Assembly (NCBI GenBank): GCA_026419775.2
Contig: JAOPGA020001803.1
Location: 1-35,930, forward strand
From: Acrasis kona
Lineage: Eukaryota > Heterolobosea > Eutetramitea > Acrasida > Acrasidae
Direction: 5' to 3'
Length of the DNA: 35,930 nt
A program made the translations under genes and the position numbers. Under the pieces are notes generated by a model. That model saw only the letters and a program-made list of their open reading frames with translations. It was not told the origin of the DNA and searched no databases. Positions 4,820 to 35,930 of the stretch are shown piece by piece; position 1 is the first letter of the stretch; every line of letters starts with the position of its first letter.

Positions 4820-6385
4820 TTATTCTTGCTCCATGTCCAAATGCACATCGATCAACTCTCTCTGCTTCTCCTTTCCAAACAATTGATCATCATCCTCGTA
4901 TTCCTCGATGGGCGTCATCATGGAGGCATCGTCCAACATACCTCTAGCCTGATACTCCTCATCATCGTCGTCGCCAAAGAATGCACCACTAGTCAACACA
5001 TGATCGCTCAATATCACCTCCTGTTGATTGCTGGGCAAGAAGAACAAGGCCAACGTGATCACATAATAATTCAACAATGGAAACATGCTCAAGTACTGCG
5101 CAGCACTGTTCACGTCGTCCTTCATCAAGAAGGTCACAAAATCAACGCCCAACACCATGCACACCAACACCGTGAGCCCCAAGAAGAATTTATACTTGGC
5201 ACTGATGCTGTACTGCGACACGTAGTGCTGTCTAAAGTTGCTCCTAGTGTCGTGAGCATCGCTTCTATCCAATTTCAACAGCGCCTCATAAAACACATCG
5301 TCTCCAGCCACTGCTCTAATGGTATAGTACACCACCAACAAGAATATGATCAAACCAATCATGGCGATGGCCATGTTGACCTGACCAAAGAAGGGAATTT
5401 CGTGAATGGGATCTGCAATTTCGTTGAAGCGCTCCCATATCAACGTGACGGTGATCAACAGCCACAGGCACGCCACCAATAATAATTTGGGCAGGTAAAA
5501 ATTGAAGGAGCGCCTCTGCGTTCCATTGTGCATGGGCAACACTGCACTGTGCGACATGATCAACACGAACAGCAGCAGCAAGCACACGCATGACGATTGG
5601 AATACAATGTCAATCAGGGTGAACAAGTACACGTCGTTCACCAGGAATAATGGGTTGTTGAACATGATGAGCGATGGCAACAACACCATGATCCATTTTT
5701 GTTCTACTTTACAATAGGACCACGTCTGCATGCGGAACAGCATTAACGAATAATATAATGTTACAATGACGCTCATGATTGTGAATATGCTCCTCAACGT
5801 CATCTCGAAGGTGGTGTAGTTCGAATTGGTGGTCTCAATTTGCGAAAAGATTACATCCTCCAGGAGTTCCGCCTTGTATACTGCGCCTATTCCTGATAAT
5901 GTTGTGATGACGCGGTATTCCTTGTATTCAATGTACCGGGTTAGATAGGTCACGATGGGGCTACAAAAGTATTGCGACGAACTCGAATCGCACGAGATTG
6001 AACGTTGGAGCGACTGTGATTGGTGAATGTCGATCCACTTATCGTCGCTCAATCCTTGTATGCTTGTATTTAAATATAAATCATTCTTGTTCAACTTGTT
6101 CACCGTGCGTTCCTTGAGAAGGATGGAGAAGGTGATTTCTTGATTGGTCTTGTTTACTTTGCCCAACACGTTTGATTCTTGTATAATGCTGTGTGCGCCA
6201 TTGAAAAATCCAGAATAGTCGCCATCAATCGTTGCTTTATGGGTGTACACTTGCTTCACTGTGGGTGCGAAGGCAATGATGCCGATGGATCCTAATACGG
6301 ACAGGAAGAACACAAAGAATGCTGCCAGAATGACAAAACTAGGCAGCACATCCACCAGTGCAGTGTATGTTCGTTGTCTAGACAT
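4820..6385 (-). CDS. TMEM181: TMEM181-like seven-transmembrane protein (GOST family)
   Basis: Intronless, 521 residues, starting at the ATG at 6385. An N-terminal membrane anchor (about residues 12-38) is followed by a ~150-residue luminal domain and then a bundle of hydrophobic helices between about 195 and 460. The block VEQKWIMVLLPSLIMFNNP, followed about 60 residues later by FNFYLPK, is the TMEM181/Wntless-type signature. The family (TMEM181, WLS, GPR107, TMEM87) acts in Golgi and endosomal membranes, and human TMEM181 is linked to toxin entry; here the role is inferred only. The tail is acidic (a run of Asp/Glu near 475). The TAA stop is inside AATAAA (GAA TAA ATG). The start is only 28 bp past the SMARCC stop on the same strand. 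Confidence 0.85.
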   Translation of the reverse strand: MSRQRTYTALVDVLPSFVILAAFFVFFLSVLGSIGIIAFAPTVKQVYTHKATIDGDYSGFFNGAHSIIQESNVLGKVNKTNQEITFSILLKERTVNKLNKNDLYLNTSIQGLSDDKWIDIHQSQSLQRSISCDSSSSQYFCSPIVTYLTRYIEYKEYRVITTLSGIGAVYKAELLEDVIFSQIETTNSNYTTFEMTLRSIFTIMSVIVTLYYSLMLFRMQTWSYCKVEQKWIMVLLPSLIMFNNPLFLVNDVYLFTLIDIVFQSSCVCLLLLFVLIMSHSAVLPMHNGTQRRSFNFYLPKLLLVACLWLLITVTLIWERFNEIADPIHEIPFFGQVNMAIAMIGLIIFLLVVYYTIRAVAGDDVFYEALLKLDRSDAHDTRSNFRQHYVSQYSISAKYKFFLGLTVLVCMVLGVDFVTFLMKDDVNSAAQYLSMFPLLNYYVITLALFFLPSNQQEVILSDHVLTSGAFFGDDDDEEYQARGMLDDASMMTPIEEYEDDDQLFGKEKQRELIDVHLDMEQE

Positions 6386-8758: not shown

Positions 8759-9771
8759 ATGTCAAGAAATCCAGTTGATCATGATCTGATTGCTTCCCAG
8801 CAGGGATTCTCTCAAGCCGATGATGAAATCATTCAAACACAAAGAAGAGCATGGTACAATATACTAATATCAATAAGGGGGACTGTAAGTTTTTTGATGG
8901 TGATGATTAGTAACAATTAAATCAGGTCATTAAAGACGTTCTTTTAAGAGTTGCTTGTTTAACATTGTTTTCCACTATAATTACCGCTCTTTACGAGTTC
9001 CAATACATTACCGTGACTTACAGCGCCGATGCACACAAGTTGATTGGATTGGGCTTGTCTCTGCTTTTAGTTTACAGAACAAATTCAAGTTATGATAGAT
9101 ATTGGGAAGGAAGAAAGTTGTGGGCCGACATTGTAAATGGATGCAGGAACATGATCCGTTTTGGAAAAGCGGCTGACGAGACCAAGAAAATTCGTCAACT
9201 ATCACACCTTTTGTGCGCATATTGCTTTTCGCTAAAACAAAGGTTAAGGGGAGATAATACCTTTTCCAGGTATTCTGACTACTTAAACGACTCGCAGATG
9301 CAATTCCTGGAAACAACCAAAAATAAACCCTTCGCCATCACGCTGCTGATCACCGACTGGACCAGAATGAATTACACGGATCGCGAAAGCTTAAAGATTA
9401 TGGAACAATACACGGCTGCTCTTGTGACTGCTCAAGGTGGTCTGGAAAGAATCATGAACACACAAATTCCATTCAGCTACATTGCACAAATCCATCACAT
9501 CTTGTTCGGGTACTTGATCACCCTGCCGTTCGTCCTCACCGAGTATCATTGGGCTGGAATTGCTGTGATTGCGCTCATTTCGTTTGCCATGTTAGGAATA
9601 GAGGAGAGTGGAATAGAGATTGAAGATCCATTTGGAGAGGACAAGAATGATTTACCTTTGGACGCAATATGCTCGAGCGTGCTCAATAATGTTAGACTCG
9701 TTTGTGAGGACCACCATGTGGACTTTGACGAGCCTGTTAGAAGCAATAATGTAGAAATTGAATTAAATTAG
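8759..9771 (+). CDS. bestrophin-like anion channel (UPF0187/RFP-TM family), one intron
   Basis: Exons 8759-8884 and 8926-9771, intron 41 bp (GTAAGT...AATCAG), giving 323 residues. The start MSRNPVDHD is in frame after splicing; the open frame from 8965 begins at a TTG and would lack the N-terminal helix. The hallmark LLVYRTNSSYDRYWEGRKLW is present (about residues 80-99), as is the C-terminal IEDPFGEDKNDLPLD motif of the bacterial/plant bestrophin-like branch. Family members are pentameric chloride/anion channels in plasma, thylakoid or other membranes; the location here is unknown. The stop is TAG, with no AATAAA overlap. Confidence 0.88.
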
Positions 9772-9801: not shown

Positions 9802-10581
<780 letters not shown>

Positions 10582-18903: not shown

Positions 18904-21900
18904 ATGAGCTTCTTTGGGTTTGGCAAAAAGGCCAACGAAGATGTTGGTAGCGTGGACACTTCAAAGTTAACCAGTCCTGTTTATGACACTGGTAGAAATG
19001 TAGATGGTTGGTTACTCCCGAACGAATTGGTGACGCTAATACATGTTAGATATCGTAAAGGGATTGATCAATGCCATCAACGATGATCAACCAACAGTCA
19101 AAACGCTTATACATGAATCCCTGTGTCGAATTGGTGACAAGGAGCCACTACTGGTTTTGAGCAAGGGATTGAACTTTTTAAATACCGCTTCAAGAGGGCA
19201 GAAAAATCACAGAGTGTTGGTCATGAATGTTTTGACTGACATTATCAACTCGAAGGTCACTTTGAAGATACCAGAAGACCTGGCACAAGTAACTAGATTG
19301 TTTTTGACTGATTTTTACATTGAAAGGCACTCGCCGTCATGTCCACTCTGGAAATTGTTGCAGAGAAGAGCATCGACTCTGACTGGCAGGACTCTGCGTG
19401 CAAACTATTAATATCCATGGCCAGAGTGGTTCCAGACACAGTGGCACGTAATCTAATCGATCGTTTCCCTGCCAATCAAATTCCACATTATTTTGTAGTC
19501 AAGGCGTTGGCTGATTTTGCACATTTATATCGTGAGTCCACGCTTCATCATTGTCTAACGTTTTGCAGCCGAATTATTCCTGCCTCACTTGAAAGAGATC
19601 TTAACGAGAGCACTACCGATCCTAGCACTCATCAAACAGGACAACATTCGTTGGGTGTTTTGTGCAGGATTAGGCAGGTGGGCGGAGGCAGTGGTCAGAG
19701 TGGCAAAGAGCGACGACAAGGTTACATTAAGCGAGTACAGCGGCAGCATGCACGCTGCGCTCAAGTGGTGCCTGAACGAAAATCTCCCACTGCGCAATCA
19801 AAAAATACGCTTGGTCGCCGCAGAGGCCATAGGTCACCTGTCGCATTTGATCGAGACCGAGCACCTGACCGCACTGCTCAAAAAGATCATCGTGGAGATG
19901 TTGGCCCTCATGAAGAAGGAGATGAAGGAGGATCAACTGCCGGTATCGATCGGCTATCAAAACGTGATCGCATCGGCCATCAAAAAGAACCCACAATCGT
20001 TGGTGGAATTCATGGATGGACCTAATGGATTATTGGTCAGCACCCATCAATTCCTCGCCAACGCCATACGCATGGAACCAACCTACAACAAATCGGAACA
20101 AAATCAACTGCAGCTCAACATTGTGTTCGAACAGCTCACCAAGGAATTCACCGATCAAGTGGTCACCTTCTTACAAAAGAGCATCGAATCGAAAGAAGCC
20201 GTTCGATTGGCCACGCTGCGCGCACTTCGACACATGATCAACAACAATGCGAGCCAACTGCACTCCTACAAGGATCTAATCGTGAGCGCGCTGCGATTGG
20301 TGACCAACGAAAATGATCTGGATCTCATCTACTTGATTCGTGACATGGGAAAGCAGGGCTATCTACAGGCCATATCGGGAGAAGATTTGGTGAGCCACGT
20401 GATCAAGGGATCATCGTCGCACCTGGAACCACTACGCAACGAATGCGACGGCACCATGATCACGTTCAGCACCGAATACGGCGATCGCATGGACCCGGTG
20501 CTGTGGCCCTATCTGCTCACCACCATCGTTCCTGGCGATCTCACCAACGCAGTGCCCATCGTGTGCAAGGCGCTATCGGACATTGCCAAGAGGAAGAAGA
20601 ACGATGATGATTTCATCATTGACTTTGATCGTGCGGTCAATTTGCCCAAACCCAACGCAGTGTTCGCCAGGTTGTTGATCCTGTTGACCGCTCCACACGA
20701 TCGCAACTCTCCAGGCGTCAATATCCTGCGCGCGCTGTACTGCTTGTCGCCCAACATTCACCCTGATCTAGTGGAGACGTGGAGCAAGAGATTACCTGCC
20801 ATGAAGCGTTACTTGGACGAGAACAGCGAGAGCGAAGGCACCAAGCCATCGCCCAGCTTTAATCAAGACCAATGGGAGAATTTATTGTTGAACTTTGTGA
20901 GGGACAGCATCGATGCGGTCAACGATGACGAATATACGGTATCGCTCGGCGATGCGCTCATAGCACAGTGCAGTCTGTACCCATTCAACAAGGCGCTCAA
21001 GAGAGCACTGCTCAGCACTGCAGGTCTCATCGTACAAAAGACGCAATTGAAGGATTTCGTGCACCGCGCCATTCACAGCATATTCGATCAGTGCGATCAT
21101 GGCAGCGAAGAGGAGCGATCTGGATGTGCGAGAGGATTGGGCCAGGCCAGCGCCAGTCACACCGACATTGTGCTGAGCAAGCTATCGCAGGTGGTCAAGG
21201 CGCCGCCGCCAAAGAAGAACTTTTTCGGCGTCAGCACGCCCACCGGCACGGGTCCCACCTACGACAACAAGGCGAAGGCCACTGCATGTTTGGCCTATGG
21301 ATACGTGAGCATGTTGACGCCGTCGTCGTTGATGGTATCGCGCGTGGAAGTGCACGTGATCAATTCGCTGTTGCCATTGTTGAACGGCACCAAGGACTTT
21401 GAGGTGAGGGAGAATGCGCTGCGTGCCGTCGATTTGATTGGAAAGGCGTGCAGCAGCGATCGAGTGGGCGATGAATTCGTGCTCAAATCGAGACAAGAAG
21501 TGTGCAAGGCAGTAGTGACGGTGATCAACACTGCCAACGACAGAGTGGACAAGAGAGTGGAATCACCTGGTGGTCCAGGCGCCGCAGCTTATGGCAATCC
21601 GCTGCGTACGCTTGGATTGGAGGCACTCAGCACGTTGATTCAATTGCCACCAAAAGTGGAATCACAGGTGCAGAATACCATACTGGATTGCCTGTTGCCA
21701 CTGTACAAGAGTGCAACGGAGGATCAAATCATGGTGCACGTGGACGAGGTGATGAACGATTTGTTGTCGTGTCATGCCGATCAGAGTGGACTGGATGCAT
21801 TGATGACGGCATTGGAGGCACCATCGCGCAGCGATCATGTTTTGGAGAGGACGCGCGCTGCCAAGAGCATCTTGTTGTTATTGAAGAGCTATGCTAGATT

Positions 21901-24025
21901 CATTGCCGATCAATCATCGCCATCAACAACAACAGGTCTCACCAACATTTCAAAATACTTGGCGAGGTTGATACCTAGATTGACCGAATCACAATTGGAG
22001 ATTAGAAAGATGGCACTGGATAGCATTTATTTGGTATTGAGGATCGATCACTACTTGCAGCATGGCGACGGTGTCGCGCTGTCGGAGCACGTTTCCAAAG
22101 TGGCAACGCTACGATCTGGATTGGATGCGAAGGATCCCAGTCAATTGCTATTCCACGCAAAGGAATTGAGCATGATATTGGTGCACGTGATACGAAAGGA
22201 TGACTTGTTCCCGTTGGTAGAGACGTGCGTCATGTGCTTGGAGGACGTGGACCATGATGGTGCCAATGGTAGCAGCGTGGTGTTGAACGGATTGATCAGG
22301 AGCAGAGGGAACGAACTGGAGACGCAATGTGCAGCGTTCGTGCGCACGCTGATCAACAGCATGAACAAATTATCGAAGCACGAACAATTGGTGACTGGCC
22401 TACTGCACGCCGTTCGCAGCATGACCAGAATCTATCCCAACATTTGCATGTCCACGCTGTTATCGTTGCCCGTTGGCATGGAGACTGTTCGCTCGTGGCA
22501 ACACATTTGTTTGGATCGAACGTTGGTGGAGCCATGCATCGAGTACTTGTTGGATGCCATGAACAATTCACAGCAGTATGAAGAGAAGCGCGATGCCAAC
22601 GACGTCAAGATGGTGGGCGCTCTGTTGCCCAAGAATGCCACCAGCGCGCTGGGCAGCATACTAACGTTGAACGAGATGAACGTGGTGGCCAAAAAGTATT
22701 ACAGCAGGATATTGATCGGTGCGCTGTTGAGATTGGGCGCCTGTAGCAGCATGAGCAGCGAGGCACCCATCAAGGACGTGGAGCTCATCATTCGTCACTT
22801 GATGATCGTGATTTGTAGAGGATTGCACCAAGAGGATGAAGAAGACGAAGAGGAGCAAGACGAAGATGATGACGAAGAAAAGATCTACGACGATAGACAA
22901 TTGTTGGACGACATGAAGAGCGTGTGGCCGTTGATGAATGCCGTCCAATATGGAGAGGCCATCCAATCCACGCTGGACATGGTGTGCAGGGCTCATTCGG
23001 ATCTGATCAGAGAAATGTTCTTGATCGCCAAGCCATTCGTCAACAGGACGCTGATCGGCGTCAGAGTCAGCGCCACCGCCACATGTGCCACCCTACTGTC
23101 GCACATTCGCAACGATAGAGAATTGGTGCACGATGCCATCAATAGCTTATTGTCCAGATCAGGAACGGACGAGAAGGTGGTGGTCAAGTTGTATAGTTTG
23201 AGAGGCCTCGCCAATCTCACCAAACAAAACAAGGACGTGCTGCACAAGTACGTGACGCCGGTGACGGGTGCGTTGATTGCCAATTTGGAGGATACCGATG
23301 AGGCCGTGATATTGGAGACCATGAAGAGCGTAAAGATTGTATTCGCCGTGGCCGATGACGAGTACATTTCGCCGCTACTGTTGAACTTGTGCGTGAGATT
23401 GAAACCTGCCTTCGAGAAGAGCAATCCACAAATCAGAGAGAGCAGCATCTTGTTGTTTGGTGAATTGGCGCGATTTGCAAAGGGAACGCTGAGCGATACG
23501 TTGGTGAATAACTTTTTCAATAACCTGCCGACCATCGTGTTGCACCTGCAAGATAATGATGCCAGCGTGATTCGTGCCTGTAAGATTTGTTTGAAGAACA
23601 TCGTGCCTCAGCTGAGCGATCATGTAGGCAAGGAGCTTGTGGATTTGTTCCATGGCGAAGGGTTCGATACCAACGCCGCCGATGATGCTGATGCCACCAA
23701 CACAGCAGCACCAGAGCTGAGCGCAGAGTTGGTTGATTTTGATGTGTTTGCGGAGAAGTTTGCAAAGATTTTCATCAAGGAATTCCCCAATCGCATTTCT
23801 GATTTGGTGATGAATTTGGTGGTGTTTTACAAGTCGGATTGGGCTGGCGTTTGTGCTGGTGCAGTGTTGATTATTGGACACTTGTTGGCCAATATTAATT
23901 CGGAGATGAGGGCCAGAGTAAACTTGAGGCACACTTGTGCTGGATTGATTTCATTGTTGAGACATCAGAATCCATTGATTAGAGAGAAGGCTGGAAAGGT
24001 TATGGGCATGTTACATGAAGCATAA
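18904..24025 (+). CDS. MROH1: MROH1/HEATR7A-type giant HEAT-repeat protein, three introns
   Basis: Exons 18904-19006, 19050-19288, 19327-19531 and 19569-24025 (introns 43, 38 and 37 bp) give about 1667 residues, close to animal and Dictyostelium MROH1 (about 1640-1650). Landmarks in order are IVKGLINAIND, ALPILALIKQDNIRWVFC, RMDPVLWPYLLTTIVP, LSPNIHPDLVETW, an acidic insert near 22836-22880, and the C-terminal block ending LIREKAGKVMGMLHEA. HEAT solenoid throughout; there are no catalytic motifs. The first intron is the least certain, since an alternative donor at 18992 would give 58 bp. The stop is GCA TAA AAG, 9 bp from the stop of the convergent MORN gene. Confidence 0.9.
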
Positions 24026-28860: not shown

Positions 28861-29991
28861 TTAAGCACTATTGAGCAAATCAACACCGTTCAAAGCACCA
28901 ACATTAAGAACACCCAGATTGCTTAAAATGCCTTCGTCATTGATATATGATGGTCCTTCTGCACCGTTGTTGATGGAACTACCGGCATTTCCACCAAGCA
29001 CTGAACCGTCATTGCCTCCCAGTATGTTTCCTAACCCAACAATTCTATTCTTCAACTGCTTCAAAGTTGTCTCAGCCTCTTCGATTTCGACTTCAAGATC
29101 AATAATATCCGAATCAAATTTTCTACCATTAAGAGCACTGACACCATTTAGAGCACCAACATTAAGAACACCCAGATTGCTTAAAATGCCTTCGTCATTA
29201 GTGTATGATGGTCCTCCTGCACCATTGTTGATAGAGCTTCCAGCATTACCACCTAGAACTGACCCACCATCTCCACCTAGAATGTTACCTACACCGATGA
29301 TTCTCTTGTTGCTGCCCCTCTTGTTATTGAGCAAATCTATACCATTTAGTGCTCCAACATTTAATACACCAACATTGCTTAGAATACCTTCGTCATTAGT
29401 GTATGAAGGTCCTCCTGCACCACTGTTGATGGAACTACCGGCGTTACCACCTAGAACTGATCCGCCATCTCCACCTAGAATGTTGCCAACACCGATGATC
29501 CTTTTTCTCCCCTCAATCACTTCTACAGGTTTTTCGCCTGTGTTTAACAAACTGACATCATTTAGTGCATTTATTGTGATCAAGTTGGCATTGCTCAAGA
29601 TACCCTCATCGTTAGTGTAGGAGGGACCGCATGAGTTACCTGCTTCTCCACCTAACACTGATCCATCATTTCCACCTAAAATGTTTCCAACACCTAGTAT
29701 TCTTTTCTTTGTGTTTCTCCTCTTGTTATTGAGCAAGTCAACACCATTTAGTGCTCCAACATTCAGTACGCCAACGTTGCTTAGAATACCTTCGTCATTA
29801 GTGTATGAAGGTCCTCCTGCACCATTGTTGATAGAGCTTCCAGCATTACCACCTAGAACTGACCCACCATCTCCACCTAGAATGTTACCTACACCAATGA
29901 TTCTGCTCGCTAAGTTTGAACGAGACTGAGACTTTGCGTTCACAACAAACAAAGTGTAGAACAATAAAAAGGACATAACGATAACTCTCAT
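28861..29991 (-). CDS. secreted protein of five tandem Gly/Asn-rich units separated by basic sites
   Basis: 376 residues, one exon, ATG at 29991. A signal peptide (about 1-19, MRVIVMSFLLFYTLFVVNA) is followed by five units at residues 31-97, 98-164, 165-230, 231-316 and 317-376. Each begins (I/L)(I/L/V)G(V/L)GNILGG, continues SVLGG.AG, PSY.NDEGILSN, and ends .ALN.(V/I)..LN. Every unit follows Arg directly: ASR, KKR, RKR, NKR and KNR. This looks like a precursor cut at basic sites to give peptides of about 55-60 residues, or alternatively a cell-wall or matrix repeat protein. Units 1 and 4 share identical DNA over about 80 bp, implying recent duplication or conversion. Unit 2 has the only cysteine; unit 4 carries an acidic insert. 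The TAA stop overlaps AATAAA. No known family was recognised. Confidence 0.85.
   Translation of the reverse strand: MRVIVMSFLLFYTLFVVNAKSQSRSNLASRIIGVGNILGGDGGSVLGGNAGSSINNGAGGPSYTNDEGILSNVGVLNVGALNGVDLLNNKRRNTKKRILGVGNILGGNDGSVLGGEAGNSCGPSYTNDEGILSNANLITINALNDVSLLNTGEKPVEVIEGRKRIIGVGNILGGDGGSVLGGNAGSSINSGAGGPSYTNDEGILSNVGVLNVGALNGIDLLNNKRGSNKRIIGVGNILGGDGGSVLGGNAGSSINNGAGGPSYTNDEGILSNLGVLNVGALNGVSALNGRKFDSDIIDLEVEIEEAETTLKQLKNRIVGLGNILGGNDGSVLGGNAGSSINNGAEGPSYINDEGILSNLGVLNVGALNGVDLLNSA
28864..29901 (-). repeat. five coding tandem repeats of ~200 bp
   Basis: DNA units at about 29701-29901, 29500-29700, 29302-29499, 29044-29301 and 28864-29043 encode the five protein units. Unit length is 180-258 bp, varying only in the linkers. 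Stretches 29211-29294 and 29811-29894 are identical. Confidence 0.85.
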
Positions 29992-34041: not shown

Positions 34042-34480
34042 ATATGGTAGACAACTCAGTTCTCCCTTTCTCCTTTTTATTTTCCCCTCTCCTCATGATG
34101 AACTATTAATTAATTAATTAGAGATGTATTTAAAATTGCTAGGTAGCAGAAACCTCTTCAGAAGACGAATTTAAAAGATTCACTATGATTCGCAATGAAA
34201 TAAAGAGTCGTATAGACACGTAAGGTAGATAAGGTAAATACACAGTGTTTACACGATCAATATTGTTTCTTAACGTTTATTCAAATATTATTAAGTTACC
34301 TTTTATACTGGCAAGTTCATACGAAGTTCCCAAGAACTATAATGCATCCTTCAATCTCCACATGCTAGTGTTCGCTTCTTGATGTTCTTCTCTATTGTAA
34401 TTAATAATTACAACACTCCTGGGACAACGAAAGGGCAAGACAACGATGTCTTAAAGATGTTCTAATTTAACGACTCTAAA
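34042..34480. other. AT-rich region, probable outer part of the retroelement
   Basis: No coding frame. A TTAATTAATTAATTAG run is near 34107. This region probably contains the 3' LTR boundary of the Ty3/gypsy element at 34899-35930, but I cannot place TG/CA ends or a target-site duplication. Confidence 0.35.
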
Positions 34481-34800
34481 CCTGATCAAACACAGGACGT
34501 AGGGATGCTAACATCAAACAGTAAAGCACAACCCTCGTGATAACCTGATCAAACACAGGACGTAGGGATGTTAAACATCAAACAGTAAAACACAACCCTC
34601 GTAATAACCTGATCACACACAGGACGTAGNNAATCAATACATCAAACAGTAAAGATATAACTAATGTCTACAAACCTGATCAAACACAGGACGTAGGGAT
34701 GTTAAACATCAAACAGTAAAACACAACCCTCGTAATAACCTGATCACACACAGGACGTAGGGAAACCAAAACTATTGGTGAAAACCCTCGTAACTCTTTC
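34481..34800 (+). repeat. five-copy ~64-bp tandem array beside the retroelement
   Basis: Units start at 34481, 34544, 34608, 34675 and 34739 (steps 63, 64, 67 and 64). Each opens CCTGATCA(A/C)ACACAGGACGTAG, and most continue with ACATCAAACAGTAAA and CACAACCCTCGT. Two undetermined bases lie at 34630-34631 in unit 3. A shorter related pair (ACATCA.ACAGTTAGA) follows at about 34802-34846. Because it lies right after the integrase stop, it is likely in the element's 3' untranslated region or LTR. Confidence 0.85.
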
Positions 34801-34898: not shown

Positions 34899-35930
34899 TT
34901 ATTTCTTCCTCTGAGTACTTCCATGTTCTGCTTCTACAATCTTTTTTTGAATCCTTTGGCGAGGAACCCTCCCAGCGGCAAGAGAAGTGGGCACAACATC
35001 AGGTCGTTCAATAGAACTTGGTACAAAACTGTTGTCTCTCATGTTGTCAATTCCAGTCTCGTCGGCCATTTCTTCGTCACTATCAGACTCCTCGTAAACG
35101 GGTTTGTCTCTTAAAGTAGCTCCTTCTGCTAATTTGGCTCTTTTAAGATAATTTGCTGGCACTTTGAGTTCCTTCTCATAATTACTACGAATAATGTACT
35201 CTCCGTTTACATCAGTCTTTCCAATTACTTCGTAGGGTCCTTCATACAAAACTTCTCCTTTCCTTTTCTTAGGATTGCGTAACATGACAACTTCATTTTG
35301 TTCATACTCGTCAGTCTTTTTATGGTACTTGGTTTTTTCAAATTTGTCAATCCTCATTTGATGTATCAAAGATGGTACAACGTCCTTGTGAACTTTCCAA
35401 AAGTTGGTCATTTTCTCGCGATCTAATTTCATGTCTTTGTCATCCTTTTCTTCTACGTTAGCAAAGTTAAAGGGGCTTCTTCCGAACATTAATGAAAACG
35501 GTGTCGCTAACATTTCCGAATGAACACGGCTATTCATTGCAAACATGCATGCTGGAATTAATTCTTCCCAACGACCTTGGTACTTCTTGTCTTTGAACGA
35601 CAATTCCATCTTCTGTAATAATGTCCTAATTGTTTTGTTTTGAATCTCAACTAGACCATTGGCGTGATGATTGTAAGCAATAACTCTCTTGTGTTCTACT
35701 CCGGCTTTCTCGCATACTTGCTTTAAGGCAGAATTGAGAAACTCTTTCCCATTATCGGATTTAATTGTTGATGGAAATCCAAACGTTAGGAAAACGTTGA
35801 GTATAGCATCGGATACTTCCTCCTTTGTCTTTGTTAAAATTGGCTTCAACCATACGAATCTTGAAAACTTGTCAACCATGACTAACAACTTCGAATATCC
35901 TTTTTTGCTCTCGTTCAAATGCATCAAGTC
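34899..35930 (-). CDS. Ty3/gypsy retrotransposon integrase, 5' end beyond window
   Basis: Open to the right edge; about 343 residues of the C-terminal part of a Pol polyprotein. The catalytic triad is complete: Asp encoded by the last codon of the window (DLMHL), Asp in SDNGKEF, and Glu in ANGLVEIQ exactly 35 residues after it. Near residue 235 is LYEGPYEVIG, the GPY/F module of Ty3/gypsy integrases. The tail is acidic (EESDSDEEMADE), with no chromodomain seen. There is no frameshift or stop in the visible part, so the element may be intact here. The TAA stop overlaps AATAAA and is followed by an A-rich run. Confidence 0.9.
   Translation of the reverse strand, partial: DLMHLNESKKGYSKLLVMVDKFSRFVWLKPILTKTKEEVSDAILNVFLTFGFPSTIKSDNGKEFLNSALKQVCEKAGVEHKRVIAYNHHANGLVEIQNKTIRTLLQKMELSFKDKKYQGRWEELIPACMFAMNSRVHSEMLATPFSLMFGRSPFNFANVEEKDDKDMKLDREKMTNFWKVHKDVVPSLIHQMRIDKFEKTKYHKKTDEYEQNEVVMLRNPKKRKGEVLYEGPYEVIGKTDVNGEYIIRSNYEKELKVPANYLKRAKLAEGATLRDKPVYEESDSDEEMADETGIDNMRDNSFVPSSIERPDVVPTSLAAGRVPRQRIQKKIVEAEHGSTQRKK

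Follow-up and report, generated by a model that had tools for sequence, protein, structure and literature searches.

In Candida albicans, Ece1p is described as a secreted precursor from which peptides are freed by processing. Processing of Ece1p involves a kexin step. The fungal KEX2-processed repeat proteins (KEPs), which include the yeast α-factor precursors, are placed at the base of the opisthokonts by the survey that deals with this class (PMC6339444). The same survey presents Rep1 of Ustilago maydis, a multi-copy precursor cut by KEX2, whose 37-residue peptides control the wall properties of hyphae; a title among its references mentions amyloid-like fibrils (PMC6339444). Metazoan neuropeptide precursors and proGATI of Chlamydomonas are reported to combine basic-residue sites with a subtilisin-like convertase and trimming carboxypeptidases (PMC10886904), and a pre-animal origin of neuropeptide signalling has been argued for (PMC9004410).

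The gene presented here belongs to Acrasis kona and has in common with the fungal KEPs a signal peptide (a predicted one in A. kona), at least three near-identical units, KR or RR sites, and a kexin gene in the same organism. It differs from them in the length of its unit core (about 58 residues), in the many sites that are R-x-x-R or a single arginine, and in its host, a heterolobosean and hence a member of the Discoba. The likeness to Rep1 concerns the layout of a multi-copy precursor with basic sites, the likeness to Ece1p a secreted precursor that releases peptides, which is predicted for A. kona; these two systems were compared by layout and description. Basic sites, a candidate convertase and candidate carboxypeptidases are shared with the neuropeptide precursors and proGATI. 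In contrast to these, the A. kona units give no convincing indication of amidation: a glycine precedes the lysine or arginine after 15 of 78 units, and a search for PAM domains was silent in A. kona and equally in all 14 control genomes.

The window, i.e. the whole analysed stretch of 35,930 nucleotides of the A. kona contig JAOPGA020001803.1 (labelled C943 in our searches), contains on its minus strand a single uninterrupted ORF of 376 residues at 28861..29991, stop codon included; all parts listed in the following lie on this strand. Residues 1–19 (29935..29991) form a predicted signal peptide, which consists of MR, a hydrophobic stretch, and VNA before a lysine; its cut site is our estimate. 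The mean hydropathy of residues 3–17 is 2.68. A pro-region (residues 20–30; 29902..29934) ends with ASR and adjoins unit 1 (residues 31–88, 58 aa; 29728..29901). Linker 1 (29701..29727) reads NKRRNTKKR, with basic residues close to either end, and is followed by the shortened unit 2 (residues 98–150, 53 aa; 29542..29700), linker 2, which is TGEKPVEVIEGRKR (29500..29541), unit 3 (residues 165–222, 58 aa; 29326..29499), linker 3, which is NKRGSNKR (29302..29325), and unit 4 (residues 231–288, 58 aa; 29128..29301). Units 4 and 5 are separated by a long acidic spacer of 28 residues that has basic residues close to either end and KNR as its last residues (29044..29127). Unit 5 (residues 317–374, 58 aa; 28870..29043) is succeeded by SA and the stop codon. 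From its sequence, the 28-residue spacer looks helix-prone to us; related spacers are present in the paralogues L009, L010, L012, L013, and L014.

An earlier note, made from the DNA letters, had proposed at this position a secreted precursor of five units, each preceded by ASR, KKR, RKR, NKR, or KNR. Translation confirmed the position of the ORF, the five units, and the residues in front of them. The start motif (I/L)(I/L/V)G(V/L)GN given there also holds, except that the first residue is isoleucine in all five cases and not isoleucine or leucine: the units begin with IIGVGN, ILGVGN, IIGVGN, IIGVGN, and IVGLGN. Likewise, the repeated unit was recognized correctly, whereas its length of 60 residues has to be corrected to a core of 58 (53 in unit 2). 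The core called invariant, DEGILSN, recurs as part of NDEGILSN in all five units.

A search of the 37.35-Mb A. kona assembly (the genome paper estimates 44.02 Mb) detected 14 further complete, uninterrupted ORFs of this kind. Together with the window gene, the family comprises 15 complete genes with four to eight units each, and in these genes 78 NDEG/NDKG anchors agree with 78 unit starts. Each of the 15 proteins has a hydrophobic N-terminus (mean hydropathy of residues 3–17 between 2.49 and 2.90). Not included in the unit counts are a sixteenth copy, L023, which is truncated where its contig ends, a divergent pair of genes on contig C431, and a relic on contig C772. Two pairs of paralogues, L012/L013 and L017/L018, are near-identical, with 99.3% identity over about 3.3 and 3.9 kb, respectively. 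The divergent genes on C431 lie close to each other (L048:2092-2688 and L048:3196-3564) and contain unit-like stretches with cysteines (IICLGN...C, IVCYGN...C); the three stretches are preceded by RKR, KQR, and RKR. Their resemblance to the main family extends over about 30–60 residues, and with the second cysteine-containing unit as query nothing matched beyond itself. Possibly, these genes represent an ancestral or sister peptide family. Copies also decay: around L025:1389-1676 on C772, a broken one-unit relic is spread over different frames.

Several neighbouring ORFs deserve mention in their own right. Immediately next to the paralogous precursor gene L016, at L016:3824-5013 on the minus strand, a cysteine protease ORF of the papain-like type (motif identified by eye) is present in pieces. 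Bestrophin-like ORFs at L014:4451-5377 (plus strand) and at 8965-9771 of the window (plus strand) have the string YRTNSSYDRYWEGRKLW in common, and both contigs carry precursor genes; the Pfam scan refers to the ORF in the window, and the shared string perhaps reflects just a large family. The window further encodes a Wntless-like transmembrane domain protein (4820-6385, minus strand; PF06664, E-value 6.9e-42), here found in a heterolobosean, and, at 9886-10581 (plus strand), a C2 domain, behind which a 15-base repeat encoding QGYPQ recurs about 13 times. A large MROH2B/Maestro-like HEAT-repeat protein is encoded at 19589-24025 (plus strand), and an ORF in another frame (19043-19411) may be the start of this gene. 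At the end of the window, an integrase-core (rve) ORF (34899-35930, minus strand), which runs past the window and is probably part of a retroelement, adjoins a 64-bp tandem array (34479-34763).

The residue in front of each unit (P1) is arginine in 77 of 78 cases and lysine in the remaining one (unit 3 of L009); without L013 and L018, the count is 68 arginines and one lysine for 69 units of 13 genes. The earlier note had named paralogues without the conserved basic residue as a refuting observation; all 78 units of the 15 genes keep it, which strongly supports the proposed layout of a multi-copy precursor. KR is retained even in L010, whose third unit is degenerate. The residue following the site is isoleucine in 76 cases and leucine or valine in one case each, and although the start pattern demands one of these three residues, the 78 starts that it finds equal the 78 anchors in number. 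In a control that was anchored on NDEG/NDKG and made no use of the unit start, position -35 was lysine or arginine in 75 of 78 units; the three exceptions are units with indels, in which the basic residue is located nearer to the anchor. Among the 4,524 cells that cover positions -34 to +23, lysine or arginine occurs in no more than 17, and 15 of these are found between -34 and -27, where shortened units shift linkers into register.

Basic residues are concentrated between the cores: the 63 internal linkers contain 230 lysines or arginines among 617 residues, compared to two among 4,501 core residues (two among 4,457, if an alternative core end is chosen). Internal linkers vary in length from 3 to 28 residues, the arginine staying next to the unit, and 44 of the 45 linkers with at least six residues have a lysine or arginine among their first four; C-terminal tails with such residues occur in ten of the 15 proteins. 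None of the 74 dibasic pairs lies within the first 50 residues of any unit. With respect to the type of site, 32 of the 63 internal ones are dibasic, 16 are R-x-x-R, 13 have lysine or arginine at P3 or P4, and two are single; for the 15 first-unit sites, the corresponding numbers are 11 single, two R-x-x-R, and two with lysine or arginine at P3 or P4. At P2, lysine (32) and glutamine (23) are most frequent among the 78 sites, the rest being S, E, T, A, or N. The P1 codons are AGA (58), CGT (9), AGG (8), CGC (2), and AAA for the single lysine; AGA is used before the first unit in all 15 genes, and CGT or CGC occurs at P1 in eight of them. An origin of this pattern by chance or as a low-complexity artefact was rejected on the basis of the NDEG-anchored control, the variety of P1 codons, and the selection acting on the cores.

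This selection was assessed for the 71 units that possess a 58-residue core (seven of 78 were excluded). Among the 2,485 pairs, dS was saturated in 1,380 and at most 0.05 in seven; the 1,098 usable pairs gave a median dS of 1.91, a median dN of 0.19, and a median dN/dS of 0.09, which is a rough value because dS is saturated or nearly so for most pairs. These values point to purifying selection and to units that are presumably old and constrained rather than diversifying. The cores are acidic (pI 4.05–4.37, mean 4.05; 3.59 D/E versus 0.03 K/R per core), have a mean hydropathy of +0.31, and are rich in glycine (24%) and asparagine (18%).

Structure prediction resulted in no usable model of the unit (five aligned window units; pLDDT 47.2, pTM 0.16) and in no confident fold of the full protein together with four homologues (pLDDT 27.8, pTM 0.24). 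In agreement with the earlier note, to whose author no matching family was known, Pfam gave no match for the whole window protein at E-values up to 0.1 or for one unit at E-values up to 1, no PDB relatives of the unit were found at E-values up to 1, and protein searches of limited reach detected no relatives outside A. kona. The latter covered 5.8 billion proteins with limited sensitivity and gave 4, 4, and 1 matches, all from A. kona; they reach relatives that have exact 5-residue words in common with the query, and in two of the searches scoring was confined to the 7,990 and 7,989 candidates with most words in common. Absence of the family outside A. kona is weakly indicated by these results, because the search listed the proteins of 4 of the 15 genes and not the window protein. 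Database proteins of the family are AKO1_007807, AKO1_001858, AKO1_012108, AKO1_000983, and AKO1_014275, none of which is named in the main text of the genome paper. In the literature searched, whose returns were partly off target, no such precursor family is described for Heterolobosea. Within the searches made, the unit family, the Arg|Ile site, and the lineage are new; the precursor layout as such is already known.

How closely this layout agrees with the KEPs can be judged by the fragment rule of the survey (PMC6339444), by which cutting at KR or RR has to yield four or more fragments, with similarity among three or more of them. We counted the C-terminal fragment, which the survey first omits, and skipped the KK fallback and the Fimo step. 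The window protein is split into six fragments, four of them with a unit; 12 of the 15 genes show both the required number of fragments and their similarity, whereas L009, L010, and L020 give three fragments each. Unit cores account for 285 of the 376 residues of the window protein (76%), compared to a repeat coverage of at least 15% set by the survey (PMC6339444). The signal peptide that the survey demands, with no further transmembrane segment, has its counterpart in the hydrophobic N-termini of all 15 proteins, which are putative signal peptides. The survey also asks for a Kex2-type protease in the organism, and a domain search of the A. kona genome detected one gene with both a subtilase (S8) and a P domain.

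The best solved relatives of this gene product are Kexin (E-value 1.3e-69) and furin (9e-69). Its active-site segments, at the positions which we take to be catalytic, align with those of the solved relatives; a hydrophobic segment near the C-terminus was noticed by eye, and the ORF begins downstream of the expected pro-domain. In addition, the genome gave 16 matches to S10 and 12 to M14 carboxypeptidases, as well as 45 to subtilases and 44 to trypsins; all of these are exon-level matches and not gene counts, and some contain internal stops. Isoleucine, leucine, and valine after the cut strongly inhibit vertebrate furin, whereas an insect furin cuts before valine and leucine efficiently, though incompletely (PMC3014772). 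A simple substrate of vertebrate-type furin was rejected, as a branched aliphatic residue follows the cut at all 78 sites. Of the cutting by furin- or kexin-like proteases suggested in the earlier note, the basic-site layout is retained, but many sites differ from classical furin sites: lysine and arginine are absent from P2–P4 at 11 of the 15 first-unit sites, and the residue behind the cut is I, L, or V. The identity of the cutting enzyme is uncertain, because nearly every site is followed by isoleucine, which vertebrate furin disfavours.

Taken as a whole, the window gene is probably one of at least 15 A. kona genes for a secreted multi-copy precursor that is cut by a kexin-type enzyme and supplies peptides in bulk to the surface or matrix. 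That the protein is a processed precursor we consider, on the sequence data, highly probable. The signal peptide would direct it into the secretory pathway, where an Arg-specific endoprotease, most likely the one kexin/furin-type convertase detected, would cut after the arginine before each unit and also in the basic stretch behind it. Carboxypeptidases, for which the S10 and M14 matches are candidates, might then remove leftover lysines and arginines. In this way, each precursor would be a bulk source of four to eight nearly identical peptides, some 58 residues long, acidic and hydrophobic, and rich in Gly and Asn.

Conservation of the arginine by itself would suit a cut site and a residue of the fold equally, although the sequences taken together imply cleavage of the precursor. 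An uncut structural or adhesive protein has to be considered, in which acidic hydrophobic blocks and basic hinges self-assemble and Arg-Ile belongs to the fold. The apparently secreted, repetitive, Gly/Asn-rich chain, whose acidic cores alternate with basic linkers like an alternating-charge polymer, is what one would expect of such a protein. An arginine also precedes the first unit in all 15 genes, however, where no preceding unit requires a linker or hinge and where the pro-regions differ in length; between the units, the linkers vary from 3 to 28 residues while the arginine stays in place, and no confident fold that uses it was found, which is weak evidence. We therefore regard an uncut protein as unlikely. 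As to the enzyme that cuts, we give the kexin-type gene about an even chance. The activation site of trypsin-type zymogens is R|IVGG. The R|IIG step of the precursors resembles this site, P1 is constantly arginine with isoleucine behind it while P2 varies, the genome contains the trypsin-family matches listed above, and the papain-like ORF adjoins L016. The same precursor could consequently be cut at single arginines by a trypsin-like (S1), a papain-like, or another subtilase enzyme; the 32 dibasic and 16 R-x-x-R sites among the 63 internal ones exceed what such an enzyme would need, and we hold this alternative, which is compatible with either of the functions discussed next, to be possible but not probable.

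With respect to the released units, a structural or surface role is our tentative choice, to which we assign somewhat less than an even chance. Bulk extracellular material fits best because of core composition, copy number, and constraint, and the units would most likely serve, in large amounts, to build or coat the cell surface or the extracellular matrix (the slime sheath, or the wall of spores or cysts), similar to Rep1 of Ustilago. The A. kona genome paper deals with a sheath matrix and with 100 genes that are induced during aggregation and lack known homologues. It also discusses quorum and kin-recognition factors that are still unidentified, and since A. kona is a social organism and the precursors are laid out like those of hormones and pheromones, signalling peptides for aggregation, quorum, or kin recognition come to mind. 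For a ligand, however, we judge a length of about 58 residues, 78 units in 15 genes, and a low-complexity hydrophobic composition to be unusual, which makes this role doubtful. Moreover, we know of no receptor for the units. Even less likely are antimicrobial or membrane-active peptides directed against competitors or against the bacteria on which the amoeba preys: that a microbe-eating organism apparently secretes numerous short copies, which are hydrophobic and rich in glycine, would suit this function, but the cores are acidic and under purifying selection without a sign of diversification.

A more far-reaching reading, which we consider speculative and improbable, is that the Discoba possess a kexin-type multi-copy peptide system with an origin separate from that of the opisthokonts, and that it provides a lineage-specific, self-assembling coat or sheath for the aggregative multicellularity of Acrasis. 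If the units are released, Acrasis spends at least 15 genes with 78 units on one secreted peptide family, which suggests a large and unstudied supply of extracellular peptides in a social, fruiting heterolobosean amoeba.
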